IMG/VR virus record: IMGVR_UViG_3300037245_000684
Span: 1-46,971 of that record
Reading direction: 5' to 3' (one strand)
Origin: a virus
DNA length: 46,971 bases
Below the pieces are notes generated by a model that saw only the letters and a program-made list of their open reading frames with translations, ran no database searches and had not been told where the DNA came from. Below are positions 1,503-28,639 of this stretch, in pieces. Position 1 is the stretch's first letter; each line of letters opens with the position of its first letter. The position numbers were made by a program, and so were the translations under genes.

Positions 1503-1823
1503 CTACTCCGAAATTACGTTAGGATCAATGATTTTTGCTTTATCGGCTAATCTCTCTTTACCTTTGCTGTATATCGCAAACAAATATCGCCGTATTATAA
1601 GCCTTATCCACTGTTTTTGTGTGTACTGCGGAACCGCCTTGCTAAGATCACCAGGCTCGTTAGGATCTGGAAGCATAGGAATCGGTGCTACCTCCAGAAA
1701 TCCAGCCGAAAACTCAGCAACCTTATCCGCCGGAATGACGATCGTAATCTCAACATCGCCAACTGCCGCAAATATGTTACCTATCAATGCCATCAGTAAA
1801 ATTATGATTATTAGTTTTCTCAT
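1503..1823 (-). CDS. Secreted-type small protein of unknown function (106 aa)
   Basis: The protein starts with a basic residue pair and a strongly hydrophobic stretch (MRKLIIIILLMALIG) followed by a plausible signal-peptidase site after NIFA. The mature part is about 87 aa, contains a Pro-rich stretch near residues 48-57 and a basic C-terminal half. It sits in the late operon between a 364-aa signal-peptide protein and the 541-aa internal virion protein. I recognise no family. It could be an exported lysis or virion accessory protein; the signal peptide is the only supported functional hint. Confidence 0.7.
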   Translation of the reverse strand: MRKLIIIILLMALIGNIFAAVGDVEITIVIPADKVAEFSAGFLEVAPIPMLPDPNEPGDLSKAVPQYTQKQWIRLIIRRYLFAIYSKGKERLADKAKIIDPNVISE

Positions 1824-1832
1824 GTCGTTTCC

Positions 1833-2927
1833 TTAATTATCAACTAATACAATATCAAATGCCGCGATTACACCCATATCTGCTGTAGTCGAATCGCATC
1901 TTATTAAAATATCTGTTTTTTCTGGTATCCCTACCGGCACGCCATACTCGTATATCCAGAACTGCGAAGCGGTTGTCATCACTTCCACTTGCCCTTTGAT
2001 TGCGAATACGCCAGTTGATCCATTATTTACCCTAGCTCGCCATGTGAACACTGACGCACCTGATGTTGTTGGGTTAGCTCTCGATCCTAAACCGACATAA
2101 CCCTTGACGAAATAACCTGACTTGCCTGATGGCACTGTATATACCGCCTGCTGTGTCTGACCGTCCATTGCAGCGATAAATGTACCGGCAATAACAGTTG
2201 CGTCAATTTCAACGGTTATGTCACCTTCGTTCGCGGCTGACGATCCAGCATGAAGAACGCTTGACCTATAAAGCCTTACATACTGATTAAGCATAGCAAC
2301 ATCAGTCTGTCCGTTCAATATCACGGTTTCTGTGGTTATTGTCCAGATACCACTTGAGTCGCTCAATCCCTCAACGCTTATAACCCCCGCTCCGGTGTCG
2401 GCACTTGACGCAACCCTATAAGTATCGCCTGATTCATTAGGGAAGTTTCTCTTTTGTGGAAGTGCTGTTTGAGCAGTTGACCCGCTTGTCATTGCAGTAT
2501 GAGTTAAGGTTGTAGCTGAAGTGACTTCGTTTACAGTTCCAAACTCACCATTCGTATCATTTATAACTATATCACCAACTGCCACGCCGTCACCAGTGAA
2601 GTTTGCACCAGTATCAATTAGCGTAGTAAGACTTCCGCCAGTTGCAGTACCCGAACTGACTAATACGCCTACATCGTCAACGTCAGTGCTTACAGCCTCT
2701 ACAGTTTTATTTACGTTCGTGTCCCAGAAAGTGTATAACCCACCGCCTCCCCAAACGTCTTCCGGCCCACCATTCACCGATTCATTATGCCCATACTTGT
2801 TCATCTGAGAATGGCCGTAAACTTTACCCTTAGCCACTTCCAGCATAAAGTCAGTTGAGCCAATTCGTGACGCATAGCAATTAAAACTAATCGCCAATAT
2901 TAAGATTAAATATAAAAGTTTTTTCAT
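1833..2927 (-). CDS. Putative virion accessory/tail protein with signal peptide (364 aa)
   Basis: The N-terminus (MKKLLYLILILAISFNCYAS) is a textbook signal peptide with cleavage expected after CYA. The rest is Thr, Ser, Gly and Val rich with alternating beta-type segments and no Cys clusters, as in beta-sandwich phage decoration, fibre-tip or receptor proteins. Residues about 85-150 contain repeated Thr/Asp/Gly motifs typical of phage beta structure. It is followed with little spacing by the 106-aa gene and preceded by the 512-aa fibre gene, so it belongs to the tail module. The exact role is unknown. Confidence 0.75.
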   Translation of the reverse strand: MKKLLYLILILAISFNCYASRIGSTDFMLEVAKGKVYGHSQMNKYGHNESVNGGPEDVWGGGGLYTFWDTNVNKTVEAVSTDVDDVGVLVSSGTATGGSLTTLIDTGANFTGDGVAVGDIVINDTNGEFGTVNEVTSATTLTHTAMTSGSTAQTALPQKRNFPNESGDTYRVASSADTGAGVISVEGLSDSSGIWTITTETVILNGQTDVAMLNQYVRLYRSSVLHAGSSAANEGDITVEIDATVIAGTFIAAMDGQTQQAVYTVPSGKSGYFVKGYVGLGSRANPTTSGASVFTWRARVNNGSTGVFAIKGQVEVMTTASQFWIYEYGVPVGIPEKTDILIRCDSTTADMGVIAAFDIVLVDN

Positions 2928-2928
2928 A

Positions 2929-4467
2929 TTACCACCATTTCTCTGAAGTTTCGAAGGTTAATATTACCACATCTCCAGCATTAAGTCTCACATCTTCTGT
3001 TGAACCTAATATATTCTCTGCTGAGGTTATCGTTATTGTGCCTGTGCCTGAGTTGATTATCCTGAATGTCTGTCCATCAACGCCAGTAGGCAGGGTTACA
3101 GTGAATGTACCATTACAATACACTTGGTCATCTGTCACTAATATTGTCTGAGTTGCAGTGTAGCGAGAGGTGTTCTTTATCCGCCCTGACTCGCTCTTGA
3201 CCACGCCTGCCACCTCAAGGGCGTAGGTCGGGGCTGTGGTGTCGCCTATGCGTTGCTTTTGCGTTACGTTTGTTACGGCATTTAGCCTGAGTGATTGTGC
3301 TGCTGGCGTTGAGGCCATCGTGCCAAATATGATTGAGTCTGTTGCCTCTGCTGCTGCCGAAGCCCTTGATTGCGTGTCCAGTATTAGCGTGTTAGATGCG
3401 GCTGTTTGTCGTAGACCAGCACGATAGCCAAGGAATAGGTTCTGGCTGCCGCTATTGAATAACCCAGACCCCCATCCAATCCCGACATTAGAATTTCCAG
3501 AAGTACCTTCAGATAACGCACTTGTACCAATCGCCACATTGTTGACAGCGGCGGTTATTTTACCTAACGCCCCCTTTCCTATAGCCATATTGCTAGTGCC
3601 TGTTGTCAGTGAGTTTAATGCGTTTTCTCCCACTCCAACATTAAGTGAGCCTGTTGTTATAGCAGTTCCTGATCGTCTACCAATGAGCATATTAGAGAGG
3701 CCATCGGTTATCATTGAGCCTGCTGACGTACCGATAGCAACATTATACACACCTTTACCTGACGAACTTCCATCAAGAGCCATAAGGGCATTAAACCCAA
3801 TGCCTATATTATCTGTGGAATTGGAGGTTAAGGCGAAGTTACCAGCCCCCTCACCAATGAAAAGATTTCGCGAGCCGTAGCTGTGGTATCTTACCAAGCC
3901 TTGATAGATGTGGCCTAGCAGCGATGTGGTGGTTGGGACTGTAAGGTTGTCCGCTACAAAATCCCCATCAACAGTAACCTCGCCAAGCGTCCCGTCAAGG
4001 GTAATAAGGTCAGTGCCAAGCCCACCCAAAGCACTGATAGTACCGCCATCGGGGAGGGTCAAGTTGCCGGTTAGGGTGAGGTCATCGCCAATATTAGCTG
4101 ATGTTATAACTGTCCCCGTCCTTGACCAATAGCCGAGAATGCCGCTCGTTGGTGGAGTTGATACCAGCTTCTTCAGGCTGTCAGTATAAACGCCAGAATC
4201 AGCAGTAAGGCTATTTACTATAATATCACCAGCGGTCAACGTGCCGGTTGTATCTAGGTTGTCGATTGTCAGATTAACATCACCACCAAGCATGATTAAG
4301 TCGCCAAGTGTCCAGTCCATGACGACGTTCTGGTTGTCTATGTCGCGGAAAATAGTGAGTAGTTCAGATCCGTCAGGACTGAGCAGGTGCATTTCGTCCT
4401 CGACTACTTCCCAACCTGCGAAAGTAATGCTTGTAAATAGCATCAAAAATAGTATTAGTTTTTTCAT
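2929..4467 (-). CDS. Tail fibre-like protein with YadA-head-type repeats and signal peptide (512 aa)
   Basis: A signal peptide (MKKLILFLMLFTSITFAG) is followed by a beta-rich region. From about residue 200 to 360 there is a run of degenerate ~14-residue units built on the pattern NxxIGxxAL or NVAIGxSAL, the left-handed beta-roll seen in YadA/Hia heads and many phage fibres. The C-terminal ~80 residues are another beta domain ending in EKWW, with no intramolecular chaperone (S74) motif. It probably trimerises and contacts the cell surface. Its stop codon overlaps the upstream internal virion gene by 4 nt. An export signal on a phage fibre is unexpected. Confidence 0.8.
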   Translation of the reverse strand: MKKLILFLMLFTSITFAGWEVVEDEMHLLSPDGSELLTIFRDIDNQNVVMDWTLGDLIMLGGDVNLTIDNLDTTGTLTAGDIIVNSLTADSGVYTDSLKKLVSTPPTSGILGYWSRTGTVITSANIGDDLTLTGNLTLPDGGTISALGGLGTDLITLDGTLGEVTVDGDFVADNLTVPTTTSLLGHIYQGLVRYHSYGSRNLFIGEGAGNFALTSNSTDNIGIGFNALMALDGSSSGKGVYNVAIGTSAGSMITDGLSNMLIGRRSGTAITTGSLNVGVGENALNSLTTGTSNMAIGKGALGKITAAVNNVAIGTSALSEGTSGNSNVGIGWGSGLFNSGSQNLFLGYRAGLRQTAASNTLILDTQSRASAAAEATDSIIFGTMASTPAAQSLRLNAVTNVTQKQRIGDTTAPTYALEVAGVVKSESGRIKNTSRYTATQTILVTDDQVYCNGTFTVTLPTGVDGQTFRIINSGTGTITITSAENILGSTEDVRLNAGDVVILTFETSEKWW

Positions 4468-4979
4468 ACGTTTATACTCCTTGCCAATAAGTCCCGGCTC
4501 GGTGTAGTTCCAGGACCAGGCAATTTTGAAGCAGCAAGACCTATCGACGCAGCACCCAAAAGACCTTGTGACAAAGCCTTGAATTTAGATTGCTTACGTT
4601 TAGTTTTGCCGATAGCACGCTCAAGAGTAGCACTGTTTATCAATGATTCAGATTCAACCCGGCCAGATTCAAGACCAAAACCAATATCCTTGGCAATATT
4701 AGCCTTTGTTTCGGCCTCAATCACGAGTGGAGAACCGACATTTATCCGGATTCCACTGGCCGCAGCAGCCCCTTTTTGTTCTGCGAGCAACCTACGTCCA
4801 CGTTCGCCCTGTATCTTCGCCTTTTCGACACTGGCATCGCGTACCGCAACGGCGTTCTGTTCGTCAACATCAGCCCGGACATTAGCAATCTGCTCGGCTT
4901 GCTTGCCTTGCTGTATCGTGCTAGTGGCCTGCAATGCAGTTCCGGCGGCGGTAACTGCGAGTAATGTTTCAAGACCCAT
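4464..4979 (-). CDS. T7 gp14-like internal virion protein (171 aa)
   Basis: The protein starts MGLETLLAVTAAGTALQATST and continues as a long Ala/Gln/Glu/Arg-rich helix (IQQGKQAEQIANVRADVDEQ) with a Gly-rich central turn, the pattern of small internal core proteins of podoviruses. A weakly hydrophobic first 20 residues and another segment near residues 138-152 (LGAASIGLAASKLPG) could enter the host membrane during DNA ejection. It follows the nozzle gene directly and overlaps the fibre gene by 4 nt. There is no signal peptide, in contrast with both neighbours. The assignment rests on pattern and synteny. Confidence 0.65.
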   Translation of the reverse strand: MGLETLLAVTAAGTALQATSTIQQGKQAEQIANVRADVDEQNAVAVRDASVEKAKIQGERGRRLLAEQKGAAAASGIRINVGSPLVIEAETKANIAKDIGFGLESGRVESESLINSATLERAIGKTKRKQSKFKALSQGLLGAASIGLAASKLPGPGTTPSRDLLARSINV

Positions 4980-4987
4980 ATATAAAC

Positions 4988-7279
4988 CTACTTTCTAATT
5001 TTCATTTCGGGGATTATAGCACGAACGCCTAACGGAACTGGTTTACTTGACTGAAAGTAAGCTGTCGCTTTAGTCGTTCCGCCATAGACAAATACAAATC
5101 GCTTAGGTTTTCTTACGCTAGTATGGAACTCCTGGAACGCCGTGACGCTCGCGCCCTCAGTAAAGTTGACCGGAGTGAGATCGCTGTTCGCTCCATTGCC
5201 AAATTCGACATCCCCGGTTCGATAAAAATCTACGTGTAAAGCTATGATTTTCTTCTTGAGAACGTAGTCGGAGGGGTCAGCCCTGAGAGGCATTGTCTCA
5301 AGTTTAGCAGTAAACGGAAGCCCGGCAGCGACAACGGACGCTTCAATGTCAATAGTGATCGAACCCCCGGAAACAACCTCGCTTTCCTGAACTATCCCAT
5401 CAGCGAACACAGCGACCGTAGAGCCGTTTAAGTGGTCGAGGCCGGTAAATGTCGCAGTAGCTGTCGAATCGTAACCCAGCCCACTGTCAACGAACCATGC
5501 GTCCTCCTGGTCGGTTCCCCAGTTGTTCGGCTGGAATTGTTCGATAAATGCCGCCGAACCGCCCCGATCAACCGTAACCCAGACCTCATCTTCGTCGCTA
5601 CCAGAAATAACAGCTACGCTTTTGAAGTCACCTGCGGTTATCTGCTTTGTCCATGCGACAACTGACTGTGATTTGTCATATGTCAATGTTGCAATATCGC
5701 CATTACTGAGAACATTCCACAATATCGGGTTTGGCCTTAACTGGAAAGCTATGTCTACTATTCCGCTTTCCGTAATCTCAGGCGATAATATTGTCAGGTC
5801 CGGAGAAAGATACTTGTCAACCTGGAAGCTAAAGCCGAACTCTCTTACATTTCTTGCCCCTCGCTCAATGTAAATAACTGAATCCCCACCCAATACCGCC
5901 CTGAGAGCCGCCGAGCCATGCCGCGTTTGTTCTTGGTAATTGGGGGAAGTCGGAGTAACAGCTTTGCCCTGGTCGCCGTATTTGCCACATGAGCCGCTGG
6001 TTCCGATCAGGAGGTAATCCTGTGACAGTAACCATCGTATCGGGTTCTGTCCGGGGAGTGCTACGGTAAACGCCGATGTATCTAGCGTACCCTCAAGGAA
6101 GTTTGCGTAATCGTCCGGGTCGGTCTTGCCGAACCATATTGTTTGTGGGTAGCTAACTGATCCACCGAATACTAATCTTTGCTGATGAAAAGCAACTGTC
6201 GAAGGCCACCCTCTGAAATCTGACCAGTACCCCTCACGCCATTGCGTAGTTGCATCAGTTGATACAAGATCAGTCAAAACAGTGGCCGTCGCTACGGTAC
6301 TGCTCGCAACTCCGGTAATTCGGACAACGCCCTTGCTTACATTGTCAGTGATAGTAAGCGTGTACGTTGGGGTTCCGCTGGAATACCCACTCATAACAAC
6401 GCGGTAAATTGCTCCATCTTCTTCATTTTCGGCAGGGTTATCAAAGTCAATGTTAGTCAATGCCGTAAGAGCAGCCCGCCAGGAAGTGCCGCCGTTCGTG
6501 CTTCGCTGGAGCGTGATCGTGCCACCAGAGTTCCCGCTGGTCGTGAATCCATATCCTCCCGTAAAGAATGGACTCGATAAGGATGTTCCGTTAGCTGAGA
6601 ATGTTCCTGTTACTGTAGAGCTTTCCCGCGTCTGGTTGATCGCCCAGATCGAGCCGATGTGACTTGTATTTGTCGAAGATTGAAATATCCCCGAGCTTGC
6701 TGTGAGCGTTATAGAGCCCGTTGTCCCTGAAGGTGTAATTGTAGTGGCCGTGTCGTTCTCAGGCAAGAATGGGCCTGTGGTGAAGTCTATGTCCTCAATA
6801 GTCCAGTCAGTGTGACTTGTTCGGCTTAATATCTGCGGAATGTCCGTACCGTTTGCAAAATACATCTCGTTATCGGTCTGAGCGTACTGGACACTGGGTA
6901 GTTCGGCAGTACTGTATGGCGTTACGATCTCAACAGGTAATGTCGGATCAAGTATCTGCCCGCCATCACGAAAGAACCGCATATACAGGTTGCCCGTTTC
7001 AAGGACATAAGCATCATCAGTTGAGTATTCAAAAGGCAATAACCGGGGATTGCCACTTTTGGCCGTTGCGATATACTTAGTTCCTGGTCGCTTAACTACT
7101 GGACCCTGAACCATGACGAACATATTTTCAACAGTGCGGCTAAGCGTTGTATATTTGGGAAAGTCAAACCGAGCCTCTATCGCCCAACCACCTTGGCCGC
7201 CAGTGAAACTAGTTATGGACGGATTGTACGCTATAGCGTTGCATGTAAATAATAATATGAGTATTAGTTTTTTAAGCAT
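4988..7279 (-). CDS. Tail tubular protein B / nozzle-like (gp12-like, 763 aa) with signal peptide
   Basis: After the leader MLKKLILILLFTCNAIA the protein begins YNPSITSFTGGQGGW and contains 'MVQGPVVKRPGTKYIA' near residues 50-70. This is the hallmark start of the podovirus tail tube B/nozzle family, where residues of the form 'G..KRPGT.' are conserved. Length (about 745 aa mature) fits T7 gp12-type nozzles. The internal region contains a long Thr/Ser-rich beta insertion and 'GWPSTVAFHQQRLVFGG', also characteristic. It should form the hexameric distal tube bound to the gp11-like ring (9823-10557). The leader peptide is not expected on a protein that docks onto a cytoplasmic capsid. Confidence 0.88.
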   Translation of the reverse strand: MLKKLILILLFTCNAIAYNPSITSFTGGQGGWAIEARFDFPKYTTLSRTVENMFVMVQGPVVKRPGTKYIATAKSGNPRLLPFEYSTDDAYVLETGNLYMRFFRDGGQILDPTLPVEIVTPYSTAELPSVQYAQTDNEMYFANGTDIPQILSRTSHTDWTIEDIDFTTGPFLPENDTATTITPSGTTGSITLTASSGIFQSSTNTSHIGSIWAINQTRESSTVTGTFSANGTSLSSPFFTGGYGFTTSGNSGGTITLQRSTNGGTSWRAALTALTNIDFDNPAENEEDGAIYRVVMSGYSSGTPTYTLTITDNVSKGVVRITGVASSTVATATVLTDLVSTDATTQWREGYWSDFRGWPSTVAFHQQRLVFGGSVSYPQTIWFGKTDPDDYANFLEGTLDTSAFTVALPGQNPIRWLLSQDYLLIGTSGSCGKYGDQGKAVTPTSPNYQEQTRHGSAALRAVLGGDSVIYIERGARNVREFGFSFQVDKYLSPDLTILSPEITESGIVDIAFQLRPNPILWNVLSNGDIATLTYDKSQSVVAWTKQITAGDFKSVAVISGSDEDEVWVTVDRGGSAAFIEQFQPNNWGTDQEDAWFVDSGLGYDSTATATFTGLDHLNGSTVAVFADGIVQESEVVSGGSITIDIEASVVAAGLPFTAKLETMPLRADPSDYVLKKKIIALHVDFYRTGDVEFGNGANSDLTPVNFTEGASVTAFQEFHTSVRKPKRFVFVYGGTTKATAYFQSSKPVPLGVRAIIPEMKIRK

Positions 7280-7288
7280 AGTATCTCG

Positions 7289-9811
7289 TTAGTATAGTAT
7301 TCCGTATAAGCGTAATGTATTAGTTGCTCCGCCAGACTGATTAGCCACCACAGCCTCAATATTAGTCTCCGCTGCGTAGGACTTTTGTTTGACGGGAGTA
7401 GCATTTGGTATAGGTTGCAATATAACAGCGTCAAATTCCGCATCGAGATTACTTAGTGTTTGTGTTCCAAGGAAGTCTGTTTCTGCTCCATCTGCACCAA
7501 TAGTAATTGTAGTTGTCGCACCAGCGTCCGCACCTGCTGTTATTATTGCCTTTGTGAGAACACATCTAACTCCTGTAGGTACATCGTAAAGGTCTGTTGT
7601 TGCATCAGCGTTAAACGCTATCGTAGTCGTAGATAGGAGTATCTCGGTATCTTCAAGAATTCCCTGCCTTAGATTACCTCTAGTTACAATCGTGCCAGTG
7701 CTTGAGTCTTGTATTTCGGCCCCAAGACTCGGTAAATTCAAGAAGAAGTTATTCTTTACTATTGCACCTGCACTGTCGTTAAATCTTATCCCAAAAGTAG
7801 TTGTGTCTATTATATTGTTGCTAATCATTACATCTGTTGATGTCCCGCTAACTAACATTGCTCTTACTGTGTCCCCAATCATCAGATTAGATTGAACGGT
7901 GACGTTCGTTCCATCCTGAACAGAAATACTTGATCCGTTGTCTGTGAATATATTGCCTTCTATTACAACATTGTCGGCTCCACTCAACATATCAATACCA
8001 GCTACCGTATAGTTTGATATGTGGTTGTTCGATAGCATTGATCTGTGTATCTTGTCATTTTGGCACTTTATCCCGACCCCAGCAACGCCACCTCCGTCGA
8101 GATGATTTCCAGAAACAATGCTATCATACATATCTGTTCCTAGATCAGATTCCAGAATAATCCCTGAACCTGATTTAGTGTAGCATGTATTATTAATAAT
8201 CTTATTAGGATATGGCGACCTTGAGTAAAACCCAGCACCTATACCGCCTGATGCTACATTCCCTTCCATGCGACCATTATAAACGGCGCCATGAAAATCA
8301 AAAGATGCTGTGCCTAAATTTCCGGTGCTTTTGTTGTTCTGAAAAACAATATCCTTTGATAGATACTGACCTGACGCTGCTGTTATTTCATGCCTGCACC
8401 CGTTCACTTTATTATCTTGTACAGTTACATGTGCCCCGCCTACGTCTATCCCATAGTTTGCTGATTGACCAACTCTATAGCAGTCTCTAATGAAACAATT
8501 CTGAATAACTCCGTCGTGTATATGATTCAATATAATGCCGTGTTCGCATAAAGTAACAGGTTCAACATTCACTTCATCTATGACAAAATTAGTTAAACCC
8601 TCCATGTTGATAGCCCAATCAAGTGGATTATTGGGTACGAATTTTAACCCAAGTAATCTAAATCCATCTAGCGGAGCTATTTTCTTAACTGTGATCGATG
8701 CGGCTGTTGGTTCGAAAACGAACGAATCATAGAATGTTATTGTTGTCCCAGAGGCGGCTTTAACTATATGAGTTTCTCCAAGAAGAAAAAGATCCTTTAT
8801 GACAGTAGAGGAATTAACAAATATAACATCGCCTACGCTAACTAATGTTGCATCATCGACGGTTAATGTTGTATCGCCCGCTGTCACGTCAGCCGTAACA
8901 GTCGCTGTACTGTCAACGAATGTGCTTGCCCTTTTAAGCATCTGAATATCGCCAACAGCGGCACTGTTATTTAGAGTGGCACCGTAAGCAGAAATAGTTA
9001 AATTAATCAAATCAGGTATAGTTAATGTGGCGGATGTAATATATTTCCCAGGAGGAAAATACAATGTCTGTCCATCGACAAGAGTGTTTAGTGCTGCTTG
9101 AATCGCTGCCGTATCGTCAATAGCGTCATCCGGAATAGCACCATAAGTCAAGTTGGTTATATTTATTACAGATACGCCCTGTAAAGTTGCCATAGCTTTT
9201 AACGCCGTTGTGTCGTCAAGCACAGTCCCCATGAAAGGGCTAACATTAGACGAAGACGGAGTAAGTGATGCAGTATAAGTCAGTTCCCCACTTGCATTAA
9301 AAAACGGATAAGAACTAGCCCTGTTTATAAGGCTCGGTATCGTCATGTCCAGCGTCAATGATTCACTTTCTCCTAAATGCCAAGACCTGTCTTTCCTGTC
9401 CTCCGCGTCTTGGATGGCACGAATAGCTTTATCAAGAGCCGCAACAATAGAAGTCGGCGTAATAGCACCTTGCGAGGTTTCCTGGCTAAGTTTAATCCTA
9501 CGCACGATTTTAACCGTGAAAGTGTCAGCAAGGGCAGGCGTGATCGTAACCACACCGCCGTTGAGATAACTACCCCCGGTTGGTGCTATCGTATAAGCTG
9601 TACCTGACACCAAGGCCGCCTCTGGCTCGCCTGTCGAAGTCAATGGAGCGTAGACAAGAACATCGTCACTCGAATTGCATTTGAAAGTAAAAGTGAATGT
9701 AGTCGTTGAACCATTAGGAGAAAAAGACTGACGCACCGTTTCGCCATCAGACACCGTTCCAAATACAGGCATTACGAATAACAATAATATTACAATAAAT
9801 AATTTCTTCAT
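7289..9811 (-). CDS. Tailspike/fibre with T7-fibre-like N-terminus, pectate-lyase beta-helix and signal peptide (840 aa)
   Basis: A leader (MKKLFIVILLLFVMPVFG) precedes a ~130-residue domain resembling the T7 tail-fibre attachment domain, with features such as 'FSPNGSTTTFTFTFKC' and 'RRIKLSQETSQG'. From about residue 215 comes the classic pectate-lyase_3 entry ('GAIPDDAIDDTAAIQAALN', then 'YFPPGKY'), followed by parallel beta-helix repeats rich in N and G to about residue 700. The last ~110 residues form a separate beta domain, probably trimerising or receptor binding. The likely role is host-surface polysaccharide recognition or cleavage. Catalytic residues cannot be assigned from sequence alone. 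Confidence 0.88.
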   Translation of the reverse strand: MKKLFIVILLLFVMPVFGTVSDGETVRQSFSPNGSTTTFTFTFKCNSSDDVLVYAPLTSTGEPEAALVSGTAYTIAPTGGSYLNGGVVTITPALADTFTVKIVRRIKLSQETSQGAITPTSIVAALDKAIRAIQDAEDRKDRSWHLGESESLTLDMTIPSLINRASSYPFFNASGELTYTASLTPSSSNVSPFMGTVLDDTTALKAMATLQGVSVINITNLTYGAIPDDAIDDTAAIQAALNTLVDGQTLYFPPGKYITSATLTIPDLINLTISAYGATLNNSAAVGDIQMLKRASTFVDSTATVTADVTAGDTTLTVDDATLVSVGDVIFVNSSTVIKDLFLLGETHIVKAASGTTITFYDSFVFEPTAASITVKKIAPLDGFRLLGLKFVPNNPLDWAINMEGLTNFVIDEVNVEPVTLCEHGIILNHIHDGVIQNCFIRDCYRVGQSANYGIDVGGAHVTVQDNKVNGCRHEITAASGQYLSKDIVFQNNKSTGNLGTASFDFHGAVYNGRMEGNVASGGIGAGFYSRSPYPNKIINNTCYTKSGSGIILESDLGTDMYDSIVSGNHLDGGGVAGVGIKCQNDKIHRSMLSNNHISNYTVAGIDMLSGADNVVIEGNIFTDNGSSISVQDGTNVTVQSNLMIGDTVRAMLVSGTSTDVMISNNIIDTTTFGIRFNDSAGAIVKNNFFLNLPSLGAEIQDSSTGTIVTRGNLRQGILEDTEILLSTTTIAFNADATTDLYDVPTGVRCVLTKAIITAGADAGATTTITIGADGAETDFLGTQTLSNLDAEFDAVILQPIPNATPVKQKSYAAETNIEAVVANQSGGATNTLRLYGILY

Positions 9812-9822
9812 GGTATTTCCCT

Positions 9823-10557
9823 TTAAAGTGTTATCCCTCTGGTATCTTCACGGAACGGCAAGACCTTACTTCGGCCACCGCCCCAATCGTTTACGCTTCT
9901 TGCTGTGTTATTGAAGCCCATCTGGTTTGCTGCTTGAGCATTCGGCCTTACAACTTGTTCGTATTTAGCAAGCATAATATTACTCGCTTCCATATCCCTA
10001 CCGATAACCGGAGCAACCTCTGATGCTAGCAATGTCGCTATGCAATCGATCATTTCTTCAGTGAATCCACCAGTTTTTGGTGTGTCAATAATCAACTCAA
10101 CAAATGCACTGTCTCTGTCGGTATTACTTAAGGTGTTCGTCAGAAGCACTTTTCCGCTGCCAGCGACATCAGCCACCATTTCCCACTGATACTCTATCTG
10201 TGAACGAACCTGATACGGCCTTGGCTGTGTTCTGGCAGCAATGCGATTTTCATCAAACTGACTGACAACCTGAAGGCACTCTCCTGGTAAGGTGAAAGCA
10301 AAACACCATTCGCCTATTTCAGACGTTGTTTCCAATTGCGTACCCAGATCGAGAAACCTCACTGTGGAACGAAACGGAGCATTCTTTGTCGCAAGGTCTA
10401 ATATTACCCTGCGTCTTATCCGGGGAAACGCCAGCTTGCACCATGACGAAACTTTGTCAGACCCGTTAATGTCGGGAATAAAAGCATTGCCGTCAAGAGC
10501 ATCGCCAGCACCGCCAAGTTTTCCTAAAGCTAAATTGCATATGTCAGTTTCGGTCAC
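9823..10557 (-). CDS. Head-tail adaptor / tail tubular protein A (gp11-like, 244 aa)
   Basis: The opening MTETDICNLALGKLGGAGD is the conserved start of the T7 gp11/Bbp-type adaptor family, which forms the ring between portal and nozzle. The helical N-terminal third includes W39, a run of basic residues ('PRIRRRVILDLA') and 'NAPFRSTV', all typical. A central beta insertion is followed by C-terminal helices ending in a Gly/Arg-rich tail. It has no signal peptide although the two genes downstream do. The gene is bounded upstream by a plus-strand endonuclease gene that interrupts the late operon. Confidence 0.85.
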   Translation of the reverse strand: MTETDICNLALGKLGGAGDALDGNAFIPDINGSDKVSSWCKLAFPRIRRRVILDLATKNAPFRSTVRFLDLGTQLETTSEIGEWCFAFTLPGECLQVVSQFDENRIAARTQPRPYQVRSQIEYQWEMVADVAGSGKVLLTNTLSNTDRDSAFVELIIDTPKTGGFTEEMIDCIATLLASEVAPVIGRDMEASNIMLAKYEQVVRPNAQAANQMGFNNTARSVNDWGGGRSKVLPFREDTRGITL

Positions 10558-10567
10558 GATATTTTCC

Positions 10568-10595
10568 TTGTATTTAAAGTAATAGCTGTTATAAT
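10568..10595 (+). promoter_or_regulatory. Putative sigma70 promoter for the inserted HNH-like gene
   Basis: A perfect TATAAT lies at 10590-10595 with a weak TTGTAT 16 bp upstream at 10568. It sits 34 nt before the ATG at 10629, which has AAAAGGA as its ribosome site. The gene therefore carries its own promoter, opposite to the surrounding late transcription. Confidence 0.5.
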
Positions 10596-10628
10596 GCGAA
10601 AAACTACGTTAATTAAAAGGACACAGTT

Positions 10629-11054
10629 ATGGCTAAAAGCACCGAAGCCCAAAAAGAATACATGAAGAAGTACCATCGAAGCGAAAAGGGCAAAGCGTCC
10701 AGAAAGCGAAGCGAAAGCAAAGAGAGTCGGAAAAGCTACCTTTATGAGTTTCGACGAAGCGACAAAAACAAGGAGATACAGAAGGAATACAGCAGTAGCG
10801 TAAACGGCAAACTTTCCCGCAAGGGGATAACAGACAGGTATAGGGCTAAGTATCCCGGCAAAAGAAAGGCTAGGACCGCAGTACACAATGCTGTTGCTGC
10901 TGGAAAAATGCCTTGCATCAAAACCCTTGCATGTGATTGCGGCGAACAGGCACAACATTATCACCACAAAAGCTATGATAAAGCTAATTGGCTTAATGTA
11001 ATTCCTGTTTGTAATAAATGTCACTATTCGTTGCATCATATCGACTCTGTTTAG
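10629..11054 (+). CDS. Zinc HNH-like endonuclease/mobile protein inserted in the late operon (141 aa)
   Basis: The first ~95 residues are extremely Lys/Arg/Glu/Ser rich with repeated 'YMKKYHRSEKGK', 'YEFRRSDKNK' and 'YRAKYPGKRKA' units, as in DNA-binding N-termini of phage-borne endonucleases. The C-terminus has a zinc site of the form CDCGEQAQHYHHKSYDKANW...CNKCHYSLHH, found in a common family of phage free-standing HNH-like proteins. It is the only plus-strand gene within 1-21.9 kb. Its end overlaps the 3' end of the minus-strand gene 11051-11449 by 4 nt. A selfish mobile gene is the best interpretation; nuclease activity is unproven. Confidence 0.75.
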   Translation: MAKSTEAQKEYMKKYHRSEKGKASRKRSESKESRKSYLYEFRRSDKNKEIQKEYSSSVNGKLSRKGITDRYRAKYPGKRKARTAVHNAVAAGKMPCIKTLACDCGEQAQHYHHKSYDKANWLNVIPVCNKCHYSLHHIDSV

Positions 11055-11449
11055 TCTCCCATAAGGGTTATATTGCACAGGCCAGTAGATGCACCTGGAT
11101 CGCCAGATAACAACGCACTTACCGTAACTGTTCCATTACACAGCACATGCAACGGCAAGTCTGTTGCTGATAGCGTCATGAATTGCTGAGCAACCGGAGC
11201 CGCACTTGTGGCTTCTGCTACCGCTTCGCCTGTAAACAACACTGAGCCTGTAGCTTTGTCGATCAATGAAACGGTTACGTTTACTGCGTTGGTCATATCG
11301 TTCATACCAACCATAATCTGTTTTACGGCCGCGTCTATGTTGACTTCTTCGGTCTGCGTGAGTCCACCTACGCCAACAGGGAAAGTCATCTGTGGCACTT
11401 GAATTCTGAACACTGAGCGTTTATTGTCTCTACCTACGCCTTGTCCCAT
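11051..11449 (-). CDS. Putative virion structural protein (132 aa)
   Basis: I take the ATG at 11449 (MGQGVGRDNKRSVFRIQVPQ) because it is preceded by a good AAGGAG site; a longer in-frame form to 11509 lacks one. The protein is beta-rich, Thr/Val/Ala-rich, without Cys clusters or membrane segments. It sits between the 321-aa putative decoration protein and the gp11-like adaptor, so a minor capsid or decoration role is likely. No family recognised. Confidence 0.65.
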   Translation of the reverse strand: MGQGVGRDNKRSVFRIQVPQMTFPVGVGGLTQTEEVNIDAAVKQIMVGMNDMTNAVNVTVSLIDKATGSVLFTGEAVAEATSAAPVAQQFMTLSATDLPLHVLCNGTVTVSALLSGDPGASTGLCNITLMGD

Positions 11450-11510
11450 GATAATACTCCTTAAGAAAAAAGGAGGTGAGCCGGAACCCACCTCATTGAA
11501 TTTAGTCAAT

Positions 11511-12476
11511 TTAGTTAGATTGCGCTATGCTAATCCAATCAATCGTCACTGTATTAACTGTAGTGATCTCGGCGAACGCACCGTAACAGATACCCATACC
11601 CGTACCATCAGGCAAAGAAGCTTCGGTCGTATGAGCAGTTCCGGCCACACCGTTAACGTAAGGAGTGACAACTTGGACAGCGCCCGTTAATACGCACTTA
11701 AAACCCAGCTTAACATACGTCCCATCAACAAGCCCAGTGACCGCACCTGCTGTTTTCTGTTCTGTCGATCCATCCGCTGTAATAAAACCAAGAGTAGCGG
11801 TTGTGTCGCCGTCTTCGTGATAGAATCCGATCTTGTCAACAACGTCATCAACCACACCAGACGGCATTATAGAAGTAAGTGTATCGGTCAGCCCGACATA
11901 GAACATGCCCTCTGCGTCTTGAGTGTGATCGATCCCGGCAAACGACACCCGAGCTTCAAACCAAATAGTCTTAGTGTCGGCAGGTATAAACGGAGTTGCA
12001 CTATACATGACTGTCAGGCCATCGTCAGGAGACGCAAACGCTTCTGAACTTACAACCAAAGCACCTCCGTCCACTTCTGACTTTGTAGTCAACCCACTCG
12101 TTACTTCCGTTTGAATCCAATCGGCAATTTCAGTGGTAGATGTTCCTGTAAGGAATCCTGGTATCAAAGAACCAGCACCACCCCACCGGGTCGCATATGT
12201 ATGGAAATCAAAGAAGCCAGCGGACGGGTCTTGCAATCCGATAGTCACAGGACAATCATTCCACAAAGTCGGACTCATGCCCCTATTGGCGTTTGTTCCA
12301 ACCCCGTCAAGGATGTCTTCTACTTCCTCAATGAACCCTCGCAAGGGATCGTTGGCAGACTTAGAGAACGCAGTTCGGACATTCTTGTCGTAGAATGCCA
12401 CGCCATACGTCATCTCTGCTAGATTAGTCGCTGTGAAACATACAAACAGCAACATAACAATTAAAAACTTTTTCAT
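11511..12476 (-). CDS. Putative virion decoration protein with signal peptide, lectin-like fold (321 aa)
   Basis: A leader MKKFLIVMLLFVCFTATNLA precedes a mature region in which residues ~30-75 ('FSKSANDPLRGFIEEVEDIL') are helical. Residues ~130-320 form a beta-rich module with 'TIWFEARVSF', 'EGMFYVGLTD', 'KIGFYHEDGD', 'YVKLGFKC' and 'VTPYVNGV'. This succession is typical of concanavalin-A/jelly-roll lectin-like domains used as phage head decorations. It is located directly after the Bbp16-like capsid gene, a position that carries head accessory proteins in related phages. The signal peptide is the odd feature. Confidence 0.7.
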   Translation of the reverse strand: MKKFLIVMLLFVCFTATNLAEMTYGVAFYDKNVRTAFSKSANDPLRGFIEEVEDILDGVGTNANRGMSPTLWNDCPVTIGLQDPSAGFFDFHTYATRWGGAGSLIPGFLTGTSTTEIADWIQTEVTSGLTTKSEVDGGALVVSSEAFASPDDGLTVMYSATPFIPADTKTIWFEARVSFAGIDHTQDAEGMFYVGLTDTLTSIMPSGVVDDVVDKIGFYHEDGDTTATLGFITADGSTEQKTAGAVTGLVDGTYVKLGFKCVLTGAVQVVTPYVNGVAGTAHTTEASLPDGTGMGICYGAFAEITTVNTVTIDWISIAQSN

Positions 12477-12542: not shown

Positions 12543-13016
12543 TTAAGCGGGCAAGCCCACGTTAGAACGGATTACTTGCGTATTGTCCTTCGTCCGAGGT
12601 TGACTAGGAGACAACGCCGCATTGATCGAGATAGTTGCACCGGCGCTGATAGTGGAAATCAAGCCGAGATACAGATCGGTTACTGCTTCCTTAAGCTCAC
12701 CAATCATCTGACCAACATTCACAGAGAGAATAGCCCTGTTGGTGTTCGCGATTTCTTCCGATTCAAAGTCTGTAATAGTCCTGGAAAGTATCTGGATATT
12801 AGTATCTAAAGTAGATTCTTCAGACAATACAAGCTGGAACTGGTAAGTATCAGACGAATCGCCAGTTGCGATAGTCTCTGTTTCTACCGACAACCACAAA
12901 TCACCAAACCCAACGTCTTTAATGGCGCTAAGCTTAATAACATTTTCACTATCGGTCGTTGAACCCGACGTCAAGTCCTGAGCGGTGCTTAATACACCAA
13001 AAGCTTCAAGTATCAT
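12543..13016 (-). CDS. Bbp16-like capsid protein (157 aa)
   Basis: It starts MILEAFGVLSTAQDLTSGSTTDSENVIKL, the pattern of the Bbp16 family of BPP-1-like podoviruses, which sits on or next to the major capsid protein. The body alternates beta strands ('DLWLSVETET', 'YQFQLVLSEE', 'RAILSVNVGQ') and ends 'RSNVGLPA'. The length matches the family. It is immediately downstream of the major capsid gene in the same transcription unit, supporting a cement/decoration role. Confidence 0.75.
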   Translation of the reverse strand: MILEAFGVLSTAQDLTSGSTTDSENVIKLSAIKDVGFGDLWLSVETETIATGDSSDTYQFQLVLSEESTLDTNIQILSRTITDFESEEIANTNRAILSVNVGQMIGELKEAVTDLYLGLISTISAGATISINAALSPSQPRTKDNTQVIRSNVGLPA

Positions 13017-13053: not shown

Positions 13054-14082
13054 TTAAGTCAACTGAGTCTCACCATCGCCGATAGCGTGGTTAAGAGAAT
13101 CAAGACGACGGATGATGATATTCGGGCCGATCATGGGAAGTTCGGTCTGATAGATGTTCTGGTCAGACGTGTGAACCTTCAATTTATCGTTGGCACCGAG
13201 AATCAACTGGGTATGAACGTCAGCATCACAATACAAGAACCACGTCTTGGACATTGTGGAACTGTGCTTGTTAGCTGCACGAATGACGTTGTTGATAAGA
13301 TCCGCACCCGGCGTAGTAGTTCCGCCGACAGGGATATTAGCAATACGCTTAACAGCACGCTGGTCACGAATGACAAAGCCCTGCTGAAGCATGAATTCGA
13401 TGATGATGTCCCAGCGACCTTCCGCAGCGTCAAGACTTGCAGCGGTTGGATCCTGGACAAACACTTCGCCTTTTTCGGTCATCTGGACACCAATCGTAGG
13501 ATGATTAGGGTTATAAACAAGATGAACGCCATTGACGCCAGGCTGCATCAACCAAGCACTACGCAGATCAGAACCAGTACCGCCAGTGTCATAGGTGAAC
13601 TCACTGTCGATAGAAGTGTAAGGTGCGCGACTTGCAAGGCCAACGATAGAATTCTGCGTTGGGTCTTGATCGTCTGGACCTGAAATAATGAGGTTAGACC
13701 ACGACTGGCCCATGCTCTCGATATGATCGTCCTTTTCTTCGGAAACGAGCATCTGAGATACTTCCGGGCCTTCGGTTTCTAGTACGTCTTTCGGCGACTG
13801 GAATCTGCTACGGGTTGTAGCAAGTGCCTCGACGAACGGGGTGCGTTCACTCTTGGACGATCCCCATGTCCCGCCGATGTTAGTCAGCGTTGACGTAGGA
13901 AGTGCCGATGTTCTTGCTCCTGTATGGAACAATCCACCGTTAGACGGAAGTGCTGGCAAGTCAAACAGCAAATCGTTGCGTTCAACAAGCGTATTAGTTA
14001 CTTCGACAGCACCGCCGTTCGGTGCTTTTAGTTTTTGTACGTCGAACAGATTTGATCTGCCCGTTAGAGCTAAAGTACTCAT
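13054..14082 (-). CDS. Major capsid protein (HK97-fold type, 342 aa)
   Basis: The 342-aa protein lies after the putative scaffold and before the Bbp16-like gene, the conserved place for the major capsid protein. Features include an N-terminal Leu/Asn-rich arm, a Thr/Ser-rich region near residues 58-85 ('TSALPTSTLTNIGGTWG'), 'SDLRSAWLMQPGVNGVHLV', a nucleotide-free beta hinge and a C-terminal domain with 'TWFLYCDADVHTQLIL' and 'GPNIIIRRLD'. This matches the GP20/BPP-1-like group of capsid proteins. Its ATG at 14082 has a good site (CAGGAG) preceded by an unusually structured 166-nt leader. Confidence 0.85.
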   Translation of the reverse strand: MSTLALTGRSNLFDVQKLKAPNGGAVEVTNTLVERNDLLFDLPALPSNGGLFHTGARTSALPTSTLTNIGGTWGSSKSERTPFVEALATTRSRFQSPKDVLETEGPEVSQMLVSEEKDDHIESMGQSWSNLIISGPDDQDPTQNSIVGLASRAPYTSIDSEFTYDTGGTGSDLRSAWLMQPGVNGVHLVYNPNHPTIGVQMTEKGEVFVQDPTAASLDAAEGRWDIIIEFMLQQGFVIRDQRAVKRIANIPVGGTTTPGADLINNVIRAANKHSSTMSKTWFLYCDADVHTQLILGANDKLKVHTSDQNIYQTELPMIGPNIIIRRLDSLNHAIGDGETQLT

Positions 14083-14248: not shown

Positions 14249-15040
14249 CTACCAGCCGAGAATCTTCCCTGTGACTGGCATTTGCTGTGCTGCTGTCTTT
14301 GCTGCCGGTGGAGTGTCACCATGCTGGCCATTCTCCGTACTGCCTTCAGTAGCAAGCGGAGCAAAGGTGTCGATCATAAGTTTCCGCAATACTGGATTTG
14401 TAGCACCCTCGCCGTCTCTTAAGAACTCAGCGACGTTGTTAGCGTCTTCAGGCGAAAGCTTACAGTTGTTCTTCAATGCTGTATGCAACTTGACCGATTT
14501 GGCGTCCAGGGCTTCTACGGTTCCGAAATCTGCATGAGCAGTCAGTGAATCATTGCAGGCTTTAACTGCGATAGCATGATCCGCTTTCGACTTTTCATCG
14601 GCGGCGGTGTTCATTGTCTCGCCTTTGGCTGCGAAATACTCGCCCATAGGACCATTAAATAGTGCGGTCATCTTGCCGACTGACTCGGTTGATACTCCTT
14701 CATCAACAGCCCACTTCTTGATAACGCCGATCAGAGCATCGTCTACCTCGGCATCGTCGGCAAGGCCAGCCTTAAAGTTGACATCAGCAAACGATTCAAG
14801 GTCTTTTGGTATCGTCCGACCCAGCAGCTTGTTAGCTCCGGCTCTAAACTCAGACCTTACATTATCATCGGCCAGCTTATCCATAGACTCAGGGAACTTG
14901 TACGGCTTTCCCATTTGGCTCTTTAAATCCATGCCATCCAATGCAGCAGCTTCAAAAGAGTCAAACTTATCCATGTGCGTTTGCAACGCCACTCTATTAT
15001 CGGCAGTTATTGCCGCGTGTTCGTTTGTTGAAATATCCAT
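14249..15040 (-). CDS. Putative scaffolding protein (263 aa)
   Basis: An acidic, Ala/Asp/Glu/Lys-rich, largely helical protein without Cys clusters or membrane segments, located immediately upstream of the major capsid gene. The C-terminal ~30 residues ('GDTPPAAKTAAQQMPVTGKI') are a flexible linker plus short basic end, as in scaffolds that bind capsid protein through their tails. Length and composition are like podovirus scaffolds. There is no direct motif, so the call is from context and composition. Confidence 0.7.
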   Translation of the reverse strand: MDISTNEHAAITADNRVALQTHMDKFDSFEAAALDGMDLKSQMGKPYKFPESMDKLADDNVRSEFRAGANKLLGRTIPKDLESFADVNFKAGLADDAEVDDALIGVIKKWAVDEGVSTESVGKMTALFNGPMGEYFAAKGETMNTAADEKSKADHAIAVKACNDSLTAHADFGTVEALDAKSVKLHTALKNNCKLSPEDANNVAEFLRDGEGATNPVLRKLMIDTFAPLATEGSTENGQHGDTPPAAKTAAQQMPVTGKILGW

Positions 15041-16669: not shown

Positions 16670-16812
16670 TAAGCTACCCTACCTATCTGTATTTCTTCAA
16701 CCTTTAAGTCTTTTTTGTTTCTTCCGCATTTGCATTTAGCGTTCGCATTGTCATTGTCAGCCCAAAACCCTTTCCCGCATATGCATCTCAATAATTTTAC
16801 CCAACCACTCAT
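16669..16812 (-). CDS. Small zinc-ribbon-like late protein (47 aa)
   Basis: The start ATG at 16812 overlaps the portal stop codon (TAATG), and the stop overlaps the start of the 94-aa gene. The sequence MSGWVKLLRCICGKGFWADN continues to a CKCGR, so two CxC pairs (CIC and CKC) are separated by 15 residues, suggesting a metal-binding ribbon. Nothing more can be said of function. Confidence 0.6.
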   Translation of the reverse strand: MSGWVKLLRCICGKGFWADNDNANAKCKCGRNKKDLKVEEIQIGRVA

Positions 16813-18632
16813 TACACAGCCTCCTTCACTTGCTCGATTACGCTTGTTTCATCAACTGGACCCTGCAAAGCCTTACTTGCCTTCATAAGCTCGATCTGGT
16901 TTTCTTGCTGCAACTGTGCGGCTCTTTGTTCGTTAATCCCTGCAACAATCTCGTCGTATTCCTCAGTCGGTACAATCTCACTTGCCGGGAAGTCCACGGC
17001 CTCAAGCATCTTATCCATCGTGCCTTTCAGACGTAGACCATGCTTGAGGTCAGGTTCCATATCAAGCAAGCCAGATTCACGAACCAGGGCGATACCGGTA
17101 GTAATCGGTTCCAATGCCTGAGTAAGCTTCTGAGCCTGAGCAAGCGGACTGACAAAGGTTGGCTGAATACCAATCGTTACGACATTCTCCGTAGCGTTAC
17201 TGAGGATTATATCGGTAATGTTCGCCATAGTATCAGGATCGAACGGCCCGCGACCTGCCCGAGCTTCAATGTCAACCATGCGAGCATCGGCAACAGACAA
17301 GTATTTGCTGTGAGTTTCAATAGCTGGACTGAGCAATGTAGCCTTTTCGCCTGCCATCTGGAATATCTGCGTAGCTGTTACCGGCTGTTTGTTCTGCCTG
17401 GCCAACTGCGAGAACATCTGAAACTTGTCAATAAAGAACCATCGCTGCAACGCTTCATCGTATATCTCGATTATCTCGCTCGGTATATTAAGGCTGCCAA
17501 TAAGATCAAGAGACTTAGGAGGTCGATCATATTCCTGCTTTCCAACATACATTTGTCCCTCGGGCGAAAGGTGCATATTACCCTTCATCGTGTCCATCGC
17601 GATAACCGGAGGTCTATTCATCAACTGGGCATTCTCAAGCAAATTCTTATGAACCTGCTGAAGTCCCATATTGTCCCATATTGCGTACCATGCCGGAGTG
17701 CGGCTTGCAGCTTCCCACGGCTTCTTGTCAAAGTCCCAATTAACAAACGGCTGCGAGAAATAGCCCATATTGTCATTCAGGGGCTTATTCTTCTTGCTTG
17801 CGTCCTGGTCAGTGATTTCAAGGAAGTAAACAGATAACCAGGTCCAGTCACCGGCAGGCTTCTTGAATGCGTCATTGCCAGAACCATCCCATATCTGATC
17901 GTCAACCTTGAACACTGCCCGGTAAACCGTGAACTCCTGATTGAGCTTACCTGCCTTTAGTGCGTTGTTCACTGACATAGTGAGCTTTTCTGTAGCCTTG
18001 GTCCCGTCAGGATCGTCGCCGATAAAGGTGTCATGTATTTGTTTTGCAGTCCACTTCTTATCGCGGACTATACATCCATTAACCTCATTAAATTTGTCGT
18101 AGTAAAGACGGACGTTCTTATAATACTGAGGCATCCACATAGTCCGACCGGAAGATTCCACTGATTCGCCAAACATTACAGGGGAGCCGGTGGTTATTCC
18201 GTCAAGGGTAAACTGAGGCTGCACATCGTAGAAGTTAGATCGTTGATACACTTCGTTCATGTAGACCTTAACGTCCTGTAGCCAAATATCAAGCTCGTCA
18301 ATAGTCCGGAGGCTGAATTGTTCCATCTGATAGCGGATCCAGACAATGTTCTTCGATACAAGATTACCCTGGAATCCAGTAGCCATACTCTTAGAATACC
18401 AAGCACCCGAGCCGTTATAGATGTTTTGACCCAGTAAGTCCATATCCTTGCCACCGCCACCAGTAGACCCGGAGTTAGTAGAACCCTCACTGTCATTCTC
18501 AGGCTGTTCGTCACTCCTGAATATGCGGATTATCTGCTCTCGGTTGGTGTTCAGGGTAGAATACTTACCCTCAAGCTCTTGCCATCGGTCAGTTATCCGG
18601 TCGTATAATGTTCTATCTTTCCATGCTACCAT
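16812..18632 (-). CDS. Portal protein / head-to-tail connecting protein (606 aa)
   Basis: The start 'YDRITDRWQELEGKYSTLNTNREQI', the Gly/Ser-rich loop at residues ~48-60, and motifs 'NIYNGSGAWYSKSMATGFQGNL' and 'TRTPAWYAIWDNMGLQQVHKNLLENAQLMNRPP'-type residues in the crown/stem region identify the T7 gp8-like connecting-protein family (bacteriophage head to tail connecting). It is somewhat longer than T7 gp8 (536 aa). It forms the dodecameric DNA channel. It follows the small 81-aa gene and the GNAT-like gene after the terminase, the normal order in this group. Confidence 0.88.
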   Translation of the reverse strand: MVAWKDRTLYDRITDRWQELEGKYSTLNTNREQIIRIFRSDEQPENDSEGSTNSGSTGGGGKDMDLLGQNIYNGSGAWYSKSMATGFQGNLVSKNIVWIRYQMEQFSLRTIDELDIWLQDVKVYMNEVYQRSNFYDVQPQFTLDGITTGSPVMFGESVESSGRTMWMPQYYKNVRLYYDKFNEVNGCIVRDKKWTAKQIHDTFIGDDPDGTKATEKLTMSVNNALKAGKLNQEFTVYRAVFKVDDQIWDGSGNDAFKKPAGDWTWLSVYFLEITDQDASKKNKPLNDNMGYFSQPFVNWDFDKKPWEAASRTPAWYAIWDNMGLQQVHKNLLENAQLMNRPPVIAMDTMKGNMHLSPEGQMYVGKQEYDRPPKSLDLIGSLNIPSEIIEIYDEALQRWFFIDKFQMFSQLARQNKQPVTATQIFQMAGEKATLLSPAIETHSKYLSVADARMVDIEARAGRGPFDPDTMANITDIILSNATENVVTIGIQPTFVSPLAQAQKLTQALEPITTGIALVRESGLLDMEPDLKHGLRLKGTMDKMLEAVDFPASEIVPTEEYDEIVAGINEQRAAQLQQENQIELMKASKALQGPVDETSVIEQVKEAV

Positions 18633-19308: not shown

Positions 19309-19649
19309 TATGAAATCGCCTTTCCTGTTGAATGCGTAGGGTTTATACCGGTTCGTCGTCTCTGTCCGAGGAATACTACTCGCCAGCCGCAGATAAGCCT
19401 GTAAGTCTTCGTATGCCCTGCTCGCTCCGAAAACAGCATAGGTGTTCGCTTAATAGAAAACCCTCGACCAAACAAGCGAACCCAGAAGACATCTTTACTT
19501 ACATTATGATCACTCTCTTTGATTAGCCATAAAACCAACACTACCGCTATCAATACCCGCTGAATCGGTGTGAATGGCTCAGGATAGAACACTAAAACGG
19601 CAGCATAGGCCATTTCTAGCATTCCTATCGCGTTTATAGATTTATTCAT
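19308..19649 (-). CDS. Small protein with two hydrophobic segments (113 aa)
   Basis: Two hydrophobic segments (residues ~7-22 and ~29-43, 'VLIAVVLVLWLI') precede a basic C-terminal half with several Arg pairs. It overlaps the terminase stop by 4 nt and abuts the GNAT-like gene. A membrane role, perhaps lysis related, is possible. No family is recognised. Confidence 0.5.
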   Translation of the reverse strand: MNKSINAIGMLEMAYAAVLVFYPEPFTPIQRVLIAVVLVLWLIKESDHNVSKDVFWVRLFGRGFSIKRTPMLFSERAGHTKTYRLICGWRVVFLGQRRRTGINPTHSTGKAIS

Positions 19650-27372: not shown

Positions 27373-27491
27373 TTGACTTTCACCCGAAATAGGTTATTAT
27401 TATGTTATGCGACGTAGTACCACAAAATCAAAAGAAGTCATCCAGGGGCAATCCGGGCTCGCGCCCTTCCTGCGTCGCAACCCTGGGTGGC
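27373..27491 (+). promoter_or_regulatory. Promoter and pseudoknot-order leader of plus HNH gene 1
   Basis: TTGACT (27373-27378) and TATTAT (27395-27400) form a promoter with 16-bp spacing. In the leader, TGCGACG (27408-27414) pairs with CGTCGCA (27473-27479), and GTCATCCAGGG (27437-27447) pairs with CCCTGGGTGGC (27481-27491, two G-U pairs). GGGC-TCGC-GCCC (27455-27466) is a hairpin between them. The order a-b-c-c'-a'-b' is a pseudoknot. Confidence 0.6.
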
Positions 27492-27512
27492 TCTTATTTT
27501 GGGAGTCATACC

Positions 27513-28629: not shown

Positions 28630-28639
28630 GAGATTTACC

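Follow-up and report, generated by a model that had tools for sequence, protein, structure and literature searches.

Predicted Sec-type signal peptides on the outer virion proteins of a short-tailed phage lineage

Tailed phages are thought to complete their particles inside the cytoplasm of the host. The virus studied here is IMG/VR record IMGVR_UViG_3300037245_000684, positions 1 to 46,971; this whole 46,971-bp stretch is called the window. Six of its late proteins, among them the tail nozzle and the tailspike, begin with a predicted Sec-type signal peptide, termed a leader below. With T7, epsilon15 and Pelagibacter phage HTVC010P, the window phage shares the nozzle, the adaptor, ejection proteins of the gp14, gp15 and gp16 types and a tail-fibre N-terminal domain; unlike its nozzle, those of epsilon15 and HTVC010P are leaderless. 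Cobetia phage Carin1 (PDB 8ck1: tail, connector and fibres) has a homologous nozzle (profile E 1e-167), capsid and cement protein and the same gene order (portal, capsid, cement, surface-protein genes, connector, nozzle), but none of the 12 module proteins tested has a leader, and its nozzle begins MASNNYQPASSYIQPSFAGGE. Phage zth2-2 of a strain of Lentisphaerae, a member of the Planctomycetes-Verrucomicrobia-Chlamydiae (PVC) superphylum, was reported to be chronic (PMC11361711); its capsid, portal, nozzle and spike genes are related to those of the window, but its nozzle and spike are leaderless. Phage lysis proteins, both endolysins with signal peptides and signal-arrest-release (SAR) endolysins, also use host Sec (for example, PMC8951688); unlike the leader-bearing proteins of the window phage, they are lysis enzymes and not parts of the virion.

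The window has an identical 127-bp repeat at both ends, and its gp15-like gene is continuous across the circular join, so that it represents a complete, circularly closed phage genome. With the circle closed, the late module runs unbroken into the genes for the gp15-like and gp16-like ejection proteins. The order on the minus strand is terminase, portal, small genes, scaffold-like protein, capsid, cement protein p157, p321, p152, adaptor, tailspike, nozzle, gp14-like protein, p512, p364, p106, gp15-like and gp16-like proteins. By its predicted gene content, including family matches for the nozzle, adaptor and gp14-type internal protein (Table 1), the window phage is a short-tailed phage of the T7/epsilon15 type. 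A structure model of the nozzle (mean predicted local distance difference test score, pLDDT, 68.8) had the Carin1 nozzle as its top match among solved folds, followed by the nozzles of LME-1 and T7-type phages. The tail parts of T7/epsilon15-like phages are expected to be free of export signals; here the nozzle, spike and fibres carry them.

All six leader-bearing open reading frames (ORFs) named in the first-pass annotation were found where it had placed them, on the minus strand and with ATG starts. A Shine-Dalgarno-like stretch lies upstream of most of them and is weak for the nozzle. Leaders were scored by a home-made strict rule: a 9-residue window with a mean Kyte-Doolittle value of at least 2.6, K or R in residues 2–9, no D or E, and a small residue at −1 relative to the cleavage site. 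Applied to the 62 called genes of the window, the rule gave seven positives, which were the six named genes and an ORF at 10557-11078 (minus strand) that overlaps an HNH gene in antisense and is probably not a real gene. The annotation's observation on the six proteins thus held, and no other credible gene was positive. The six all fall within the 23 late minus-strand genes and none among the other 39, a distribution with a probability of about 0.002 under random placement. Each begins M(L)K/RK and continues with a hydrophobic core that carries no charge and a plausible cleavage site for signal peptidase I. None has in its n-region the RR of twin-arginine translocation (Tat) signals, and none matches the lipobox of signal peptidase II, [LVI][ASTVI][GAS]C, because no G, A or S precedes a Cys; the Cys that is frequent in the aligned nozzle leaders is preceded by L, F or I and is likewise not lipobox-like. 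The six N-termini are predicted to be of the Sec/signal peptidase I type.

Relatives were gathered from IMG/VR by their nozzle and capsid, with contigs from genomes added, and yielded a leader clade of about 30 phages. Within this clade, the strict rule found a leader on the nozzle in 32 of 37 cases, on the spike in 13 of 13, on p321 in all 17 complete homologues, on p364 and p106 in 2 of 2 each, and on p512 in all four homologues, the window's own counted, that reach the N-terminus (eight matches in total). In the inner families, leaders were found for adaptor 0/33, capsid 0/22, scaffold 0/20, portal 0/20, terminase 0/6, cement 0/17, gp15 0/14, gp16 0/8 and gp14 1/26. Overall, 70 of 75 outer proteins had leaders compared with 1 of 166 inner proteins (Fisher p=2e-53, uncorrected for relatedness and with p512 counted as 4/4). 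The first-pass annotation had described terminase, portal, capsid, adaptor and internal proteins as leaderless, and this was confirmed. Its further claim, that the leader marks proteins on the outside of the particle, is well supported by the overall partition but is not supported as a strict rule, since the nozzles of two phages within the clade (L146 and L015) are leaderless.

Three of the five nozzle exceptions could be explained. In L077 the nozzle gene is split and its leaders exceed in length the span that was searched, and in L044 (about 824) and L072 (about 2672) the leader-coding frame lacks ATG, GTG and TTG and opens after a G-rich stretch, with ATT or ATA codons that are possibly non-canonical starts. 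These two cases, together with the home-made nature of the rule, could be taken to mean that the leaders are an artefact of misassigned start codons or chance hydrophobic N-termini. We find this hardly credible, in view of the ATG starts, the conservation in about 30 phages and the near absence of leaders in leaderless relatives by the same rule, which flagged 128 of 407 module genes in phages of the leader clade and 5 of 482 in leaderless relatives. When close homologues from independent IMG/VR contigs were compared, 29 of 31 substitutions in the leader core kept the residue hydrophobic, compared with 61% expected (p=5e-5); by this measure, purifying selection maintains the hydrophobicity of the leaders.

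In the nozzle the leader has the appearance of an added unit. The nozzles of leaderless relatives (Pelagibacter phages, alphaproteobacterial prophages, Carin1, epsilon15, zth2-2 and other Planctomycetota loci) start about 5–15 residues before a conserved FNxGE motif, and those of the leader clade have 15–20 residues placed ahead of this normal N-terminus. The aligned leaders contain K or R at column 5 in 30 of 31 sequences, have core columns that are 87–100% hydrophobic and free of D, E, K and R, and end in a small residue at the predicted −1 position in 31 of 31 (G in 14, A in 13, S in 4), with mostly A, S, L, C or V at −3. On the nozzle tree the presence of a leader is strongly clustered, requiring 5 changes compared with 25 for shuffled labels; a second tree that included L146 again gave 5. 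Because of this clustering and the constraint on hydrophobicity, we regard the leader as old and maintained. In 14 of 18 nozzles no start codon lies between the cleavage site and the body, so that a second start could not supply a leaderless form. The idea of a cytoplasmic form made from an internal start was therefore rejected for nozzles and is possible only for p840 and p321.

By the established rules for signal peptides, basic residues before the core give an N-in/C-out orientation, and a short core with a small residue at −1 leads to cleavage. With or without cleavage, the K or R ahead of the core would thus place the body of each protein outside the cytoplasm, and the short core with its invariant small −1 residue favors cutting. 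The annotation had offered three uses for the leaders: export with joining to heads at the membrane or periplasm, membrane anchoring for assembly, and retention in the virion as hydrophobic tips. The charge pattern, the short core, the small −1 residue and the leaderless homologues that start at the predicted mature N-terminus favor export; the other two fit poorly. If the leaders were uncleaved signal anchors, tail proteins would be tethered in the inner membrane with their bodies outside, and heads would dock there to receive tails. A tether would have the merit of holding the tail proteins at one place, and in some relatives module proteins near the adaptor do have longer hydrophobic N-termini (MKTIKRYGKAALVSLAILAFIALMALQISPIN, L066), but the main leaders, with their short core and small −1 residue (31 of 31 nozzles), are typical of cleaved peptides, and homologues without a leader start where the mature protein is predicted to start; anchoring is unlikely. 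That the leaders stay in the virion as membrane-interacting tips would agree with their hydrophobicity and their place on outer proteins, and with nothing more. The N-terminal 45 residues of the T7 nozzle lie in the platform barrel and not at the distal tip (PMC6702177), and a tip would need neither K or R, nor AXA-like ends, nor a leader on each nozzle fragment, which makes retention highly improbable.

Such fragments occur in L007 (15882-20886) and in the distantly placed L077 (8454-12679), in which the nozzle is broken near residue 104 into three ORFs, encoding an N-terminal domain with a large insert, an N-terminal domain alone, and the remainder. All three carry leaders of their own. Because a C-terminal piece inherits no leader from a split, its leader had to be gained, as would be predicted if all pieces need to reach the same compartment. 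This arrangement suggests a nozzle built with two alternative N-terminal domains. The converse case is L146, a portion of a 46.9-kb contig that was binned with a Phycisphaerae genome; on the nozzle tree it is nested inside the leader clade. Its nozzle (MKISPTITSF) and spike (MTVASSESIRESF) are both leaderless and start at the mature N-terminus predicted for their relatives, and its p321-type protein and others still bear leaders. As read from these N-termini, the leader has been lost from the nozzle and the spike together; in T7-like tails these two proteins are in contact.

The leaders might also be leftovers or neutral passengers on fibre genes that were acquired from secreted host proteins. 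Some of the passenger domains (GLUG, dockerin-like and beta-helix) are common in secreted bacterial proteins. The p106, p364 and p321 genes are 81–96% identical to those of L066 (96% for p364), whereas the two nozzles are only 37% identical, so that leader-bearing fibre genes move among phages of the clade. However, the nozzle and the gp17-like N-terminal domain of the spike are phage families, to which leaders must have been added, and neither the purifying selection for hydrophobicity nor persistence across deep nozzle divergence is expected of passengers. We consider this origin very unlikely. A search of Phycisphaerae samples for signal peptides that could have been the source of the nozzle consensus LLCSVxF[AG] found none.

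The host is likely a Phycisphaerae planctomycete. Two contigs of the leader clade or nested in it were found in Phycisphaerae genome bins: L146, and C18 of G001, a complete phage that again has 127-bp ends. Of 61 Phycisphaerae genomes, 13 contain scattered occurrences of the 15-mer TCTGTGTCCTCTGTG, with up to 50 copies in one; its reversed sequence gave 0 and other host genomes 0 of 10. The 15-mer also occurs in phage C18 and in the DNA that encodes the leader of a split nozzle ORF of L077 (about 9947-10030), as if this signal peptide had been made from interspersed Phycisphaerae repeat DNA. The GC content is also in agreement (0.45 and 0.47). Chromosome-sized contigs yielded no leader-bearing copy, and the search for chromosomal proof of the host gave only a short, distant and leaderless nozzle in G352.

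Export, loss of the leader and joining outside the cytoplasm together are the best explanation of these observations, and we consider it moderately likely. On this view, the six leaders would be signal peptides of the Sec type that signal peptidase I removes. All proteins located outward of the gp11-like adaptor or on the outer face of the capsid, namely the nozzle, tailspikes and fibres, and probably also a head fibre, would cross the inner membrane, lose their leaders and fold in the periplasm. Heads would be built, filled and fitted with adaptors in the cytoplasm from proteins that lack leaders (portal, capsid, cement, scaffold, ejection proteins and adaptor). Heads and tails would come together outside the cytoplasm, where the adaptor joins the nozzle; the simplest moment for this would be the opening of the inner membrane by the lysis system. 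It is at the joint of adaptor and nozzle that leaderless proteins give way to leader-bearing ones. In T7, the closed portal holds the DNA before tail assembly, and after packaging the tail is added in the order gp11, gp12, gp17 (PMC6702177); heads could thus wait for tails. The sequences themselves show the anatomy of the leader, its confinement to outer proteins, its conservation, its occurrence on every piece of the split nozzles and its joint loss from nozzle and spike. Export and cleavage of the outer proteins are strongly inferred; the place and time of head–tail joining we only infer. To a virion of two compartments, with heads in the cytoplasm and, after Sec export and leader cleavage, the tails, spikes and also the head fibres in the periplasm, the two being joined outside the cytoplasm at the adaptor–nozzle interface, we would give an even chance.

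Several points weigh against this explanation. The nozzle of L015 is truly leaderless, although other L015 proteins keep their leaders, and with the nozzle of L146 it indicates that nozzle export is dispensable in the clade. Leaderless relatives occur in Planctomycetota genomes, so that the host envelope alone is insufficient for the trait; as its sole cause it was rejected, the nozzles of other Planctomycetota-associated loci and of the Lentisphaerae phage zth2-2 being leaderless. The nozzles of T7 and P22 contribute to sealing in the DNA, so that waiting heads with only an adaptor must be stable. The cysteine content of leader-bearing proteins is 0.93% compared with 0.67%, a slight rise that does not clearly point to an oxidising compartment. 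The two leaderless nozzles, found alongside leader-bearing fibres, would fit a partial or side export, by which the nozzle and spike that remain in the cytoplasm suffice for normal assembly and the exported pool acts outside, for example through spikes that degrade surface polysaccharide or block receptors; beta-helix, pectate-lyase-like spikes would suit such a role. The nozzle, however, has no plausible job outside and yet bears a leader in nearly the whole clade, each piece of a split nozzle has one, and most nozzles lack a second start from which a cytoplasmic form could be made. We therefore judge partial export rather unlikely.

No precedent for Sec leaders on the nozzle or on other tail or virion proteins was found in full-text open-licence papers, subscription papers and preprints being outside this scope. 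Podophage tails and Sec signal peptides are each known; their combination on outer virion proteins, with the evidence from split genes and coupled loss, appears to be new. If a phage lineage does export its tails and outer fibres and complete its particles outside, then morphogenesis, the timing of lysis and the control of tail activity would need rethinking. The partition seen in the sequences makes export directly testable, and a leader on the nozzle gene could serve as a marker for such phages in metagenomes.

Table 1. Late-module features of the window, with leader position in nucleotides and amino acids (aa) and predicted cleavage site
Feature	Position	Strand	Leader	Remarks
p106, small protein	1503..1823	-	1767-1823 (aa 1-19, IFA/A); MRKLIIIILLMALIGNIFA/A	L066 homologue 84% identical, with leader; zero matches in PHROG and Pfam profile comparison
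p364, fibre-like	1833..2927	-	2871-2927 (aa 1-19, CYA/S); MKKLLYLILILAISFNCYA/S	phrog_8198 (function unknown), 6e-34; L066 homologue 96% identical, with leader
p512, tail-spike/fibre-like	2929..4467	-	4417-4467 (aa 1-17, TFA/G); MKKLILFLMLFTSITFA/G	phrog_4636 'tail spike', 3e-19; YadA-like repeats
gp14-like internal virion protein	4464..4979	-	none (control)	phrog_418, 7e-24
gp12-like tail nozzle (p763)	4988..7279	-	7229-7279 (aa 1-17, AIA/Y); MLKKLILILLFTCNAIA/Y	phrog_376, 1e-164
tailspike (p840)	7289..9811	-	9758-9811 (aa 1-18, VFG/T); MKKLFIVILLLFVMPVFG/T	beta-helix; N-terminal domain similar to tail-fibre N-termini of Pelagibacter and epsilon15-type phages
gp11-like adaptor	9823..10557	-	none (control)	phrog_394, 5e-13
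p152, function unknown	11051..11509	-	none here	one distant homologue, in L017, with leader
p321, outer fibre candidate	11511..12476	-	12417-12476 (aa 1-20, NLA/E); MKKFLIVMLLFVCFTATNLA/E	located where Carin1 encodes the head spike base
p157, capsid cement protein	12543..13016	-	none (control)	hhalign to Carin1 gp42 cement 97.4%, E 9.5e-12
major capsid protein	13054..14082	-	none (control)	phrog_212, 2e-25
scaffold-like protein	14249..15040	-	none (control)	assigned by position
portal (head-tail connector)	16812..18632	-	none (control)	phrog_332, 1e-38
terminase large subunit	19646..21265	-	none (control)	0/6 with leader in the clade
gp15-like ejection protein, 541 aa	1..1499 + 46718-46971	-	none (control)	spans circular join
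gp16-like ejection protein, 1643 aa	41805..46736	-	none (control)	phrog_6651, phrog_10089

Neither p321 nor p152 had sequence support as a homologue of the Carin1 head spike base, and p321 gave no sequence match to Carin1 gp38-gp40; the AlphaFold2 model of p321 had a pLDDT of 28.5. A link to chronic release was also considered and set aside, because the deposited ZRK32 phage, a phage of a planctomycete, is partial and the 21 kb read contains no recognisable tail module.

Several further observations were made. Residues 562–833 of the gp16-like protein also match a DarB-like antirestriction family (phrog_10089). A gene of unknown function that recurs near the adaptor encodes the longer, transmembrane-like N-terminus quoted above from L066 (L066 955-1860, L007 13373-14326, L028 4397-5323, L077 4366-5310 and L040 6124-6819). 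One leader-bearing phage protein of L015 (6910-8493) has a dockerin-like stretch, GDINSDGFVDTLDLH, right after its leader. In the window, an HNH-type ORF (10629-11054, plus strand) is located between p152 and the adaptor in antisense orientation, and three similar HNH/AP2-like ORFs, homing-endonuclease-like by eye, are at 22512-23006 (minus), 27402-28001 (plus) and 39386-39868 (plus). A recombination module with YqaJ-type recombinase, ERF and RusA genes occupies 28012-29485 and 38050-38391.

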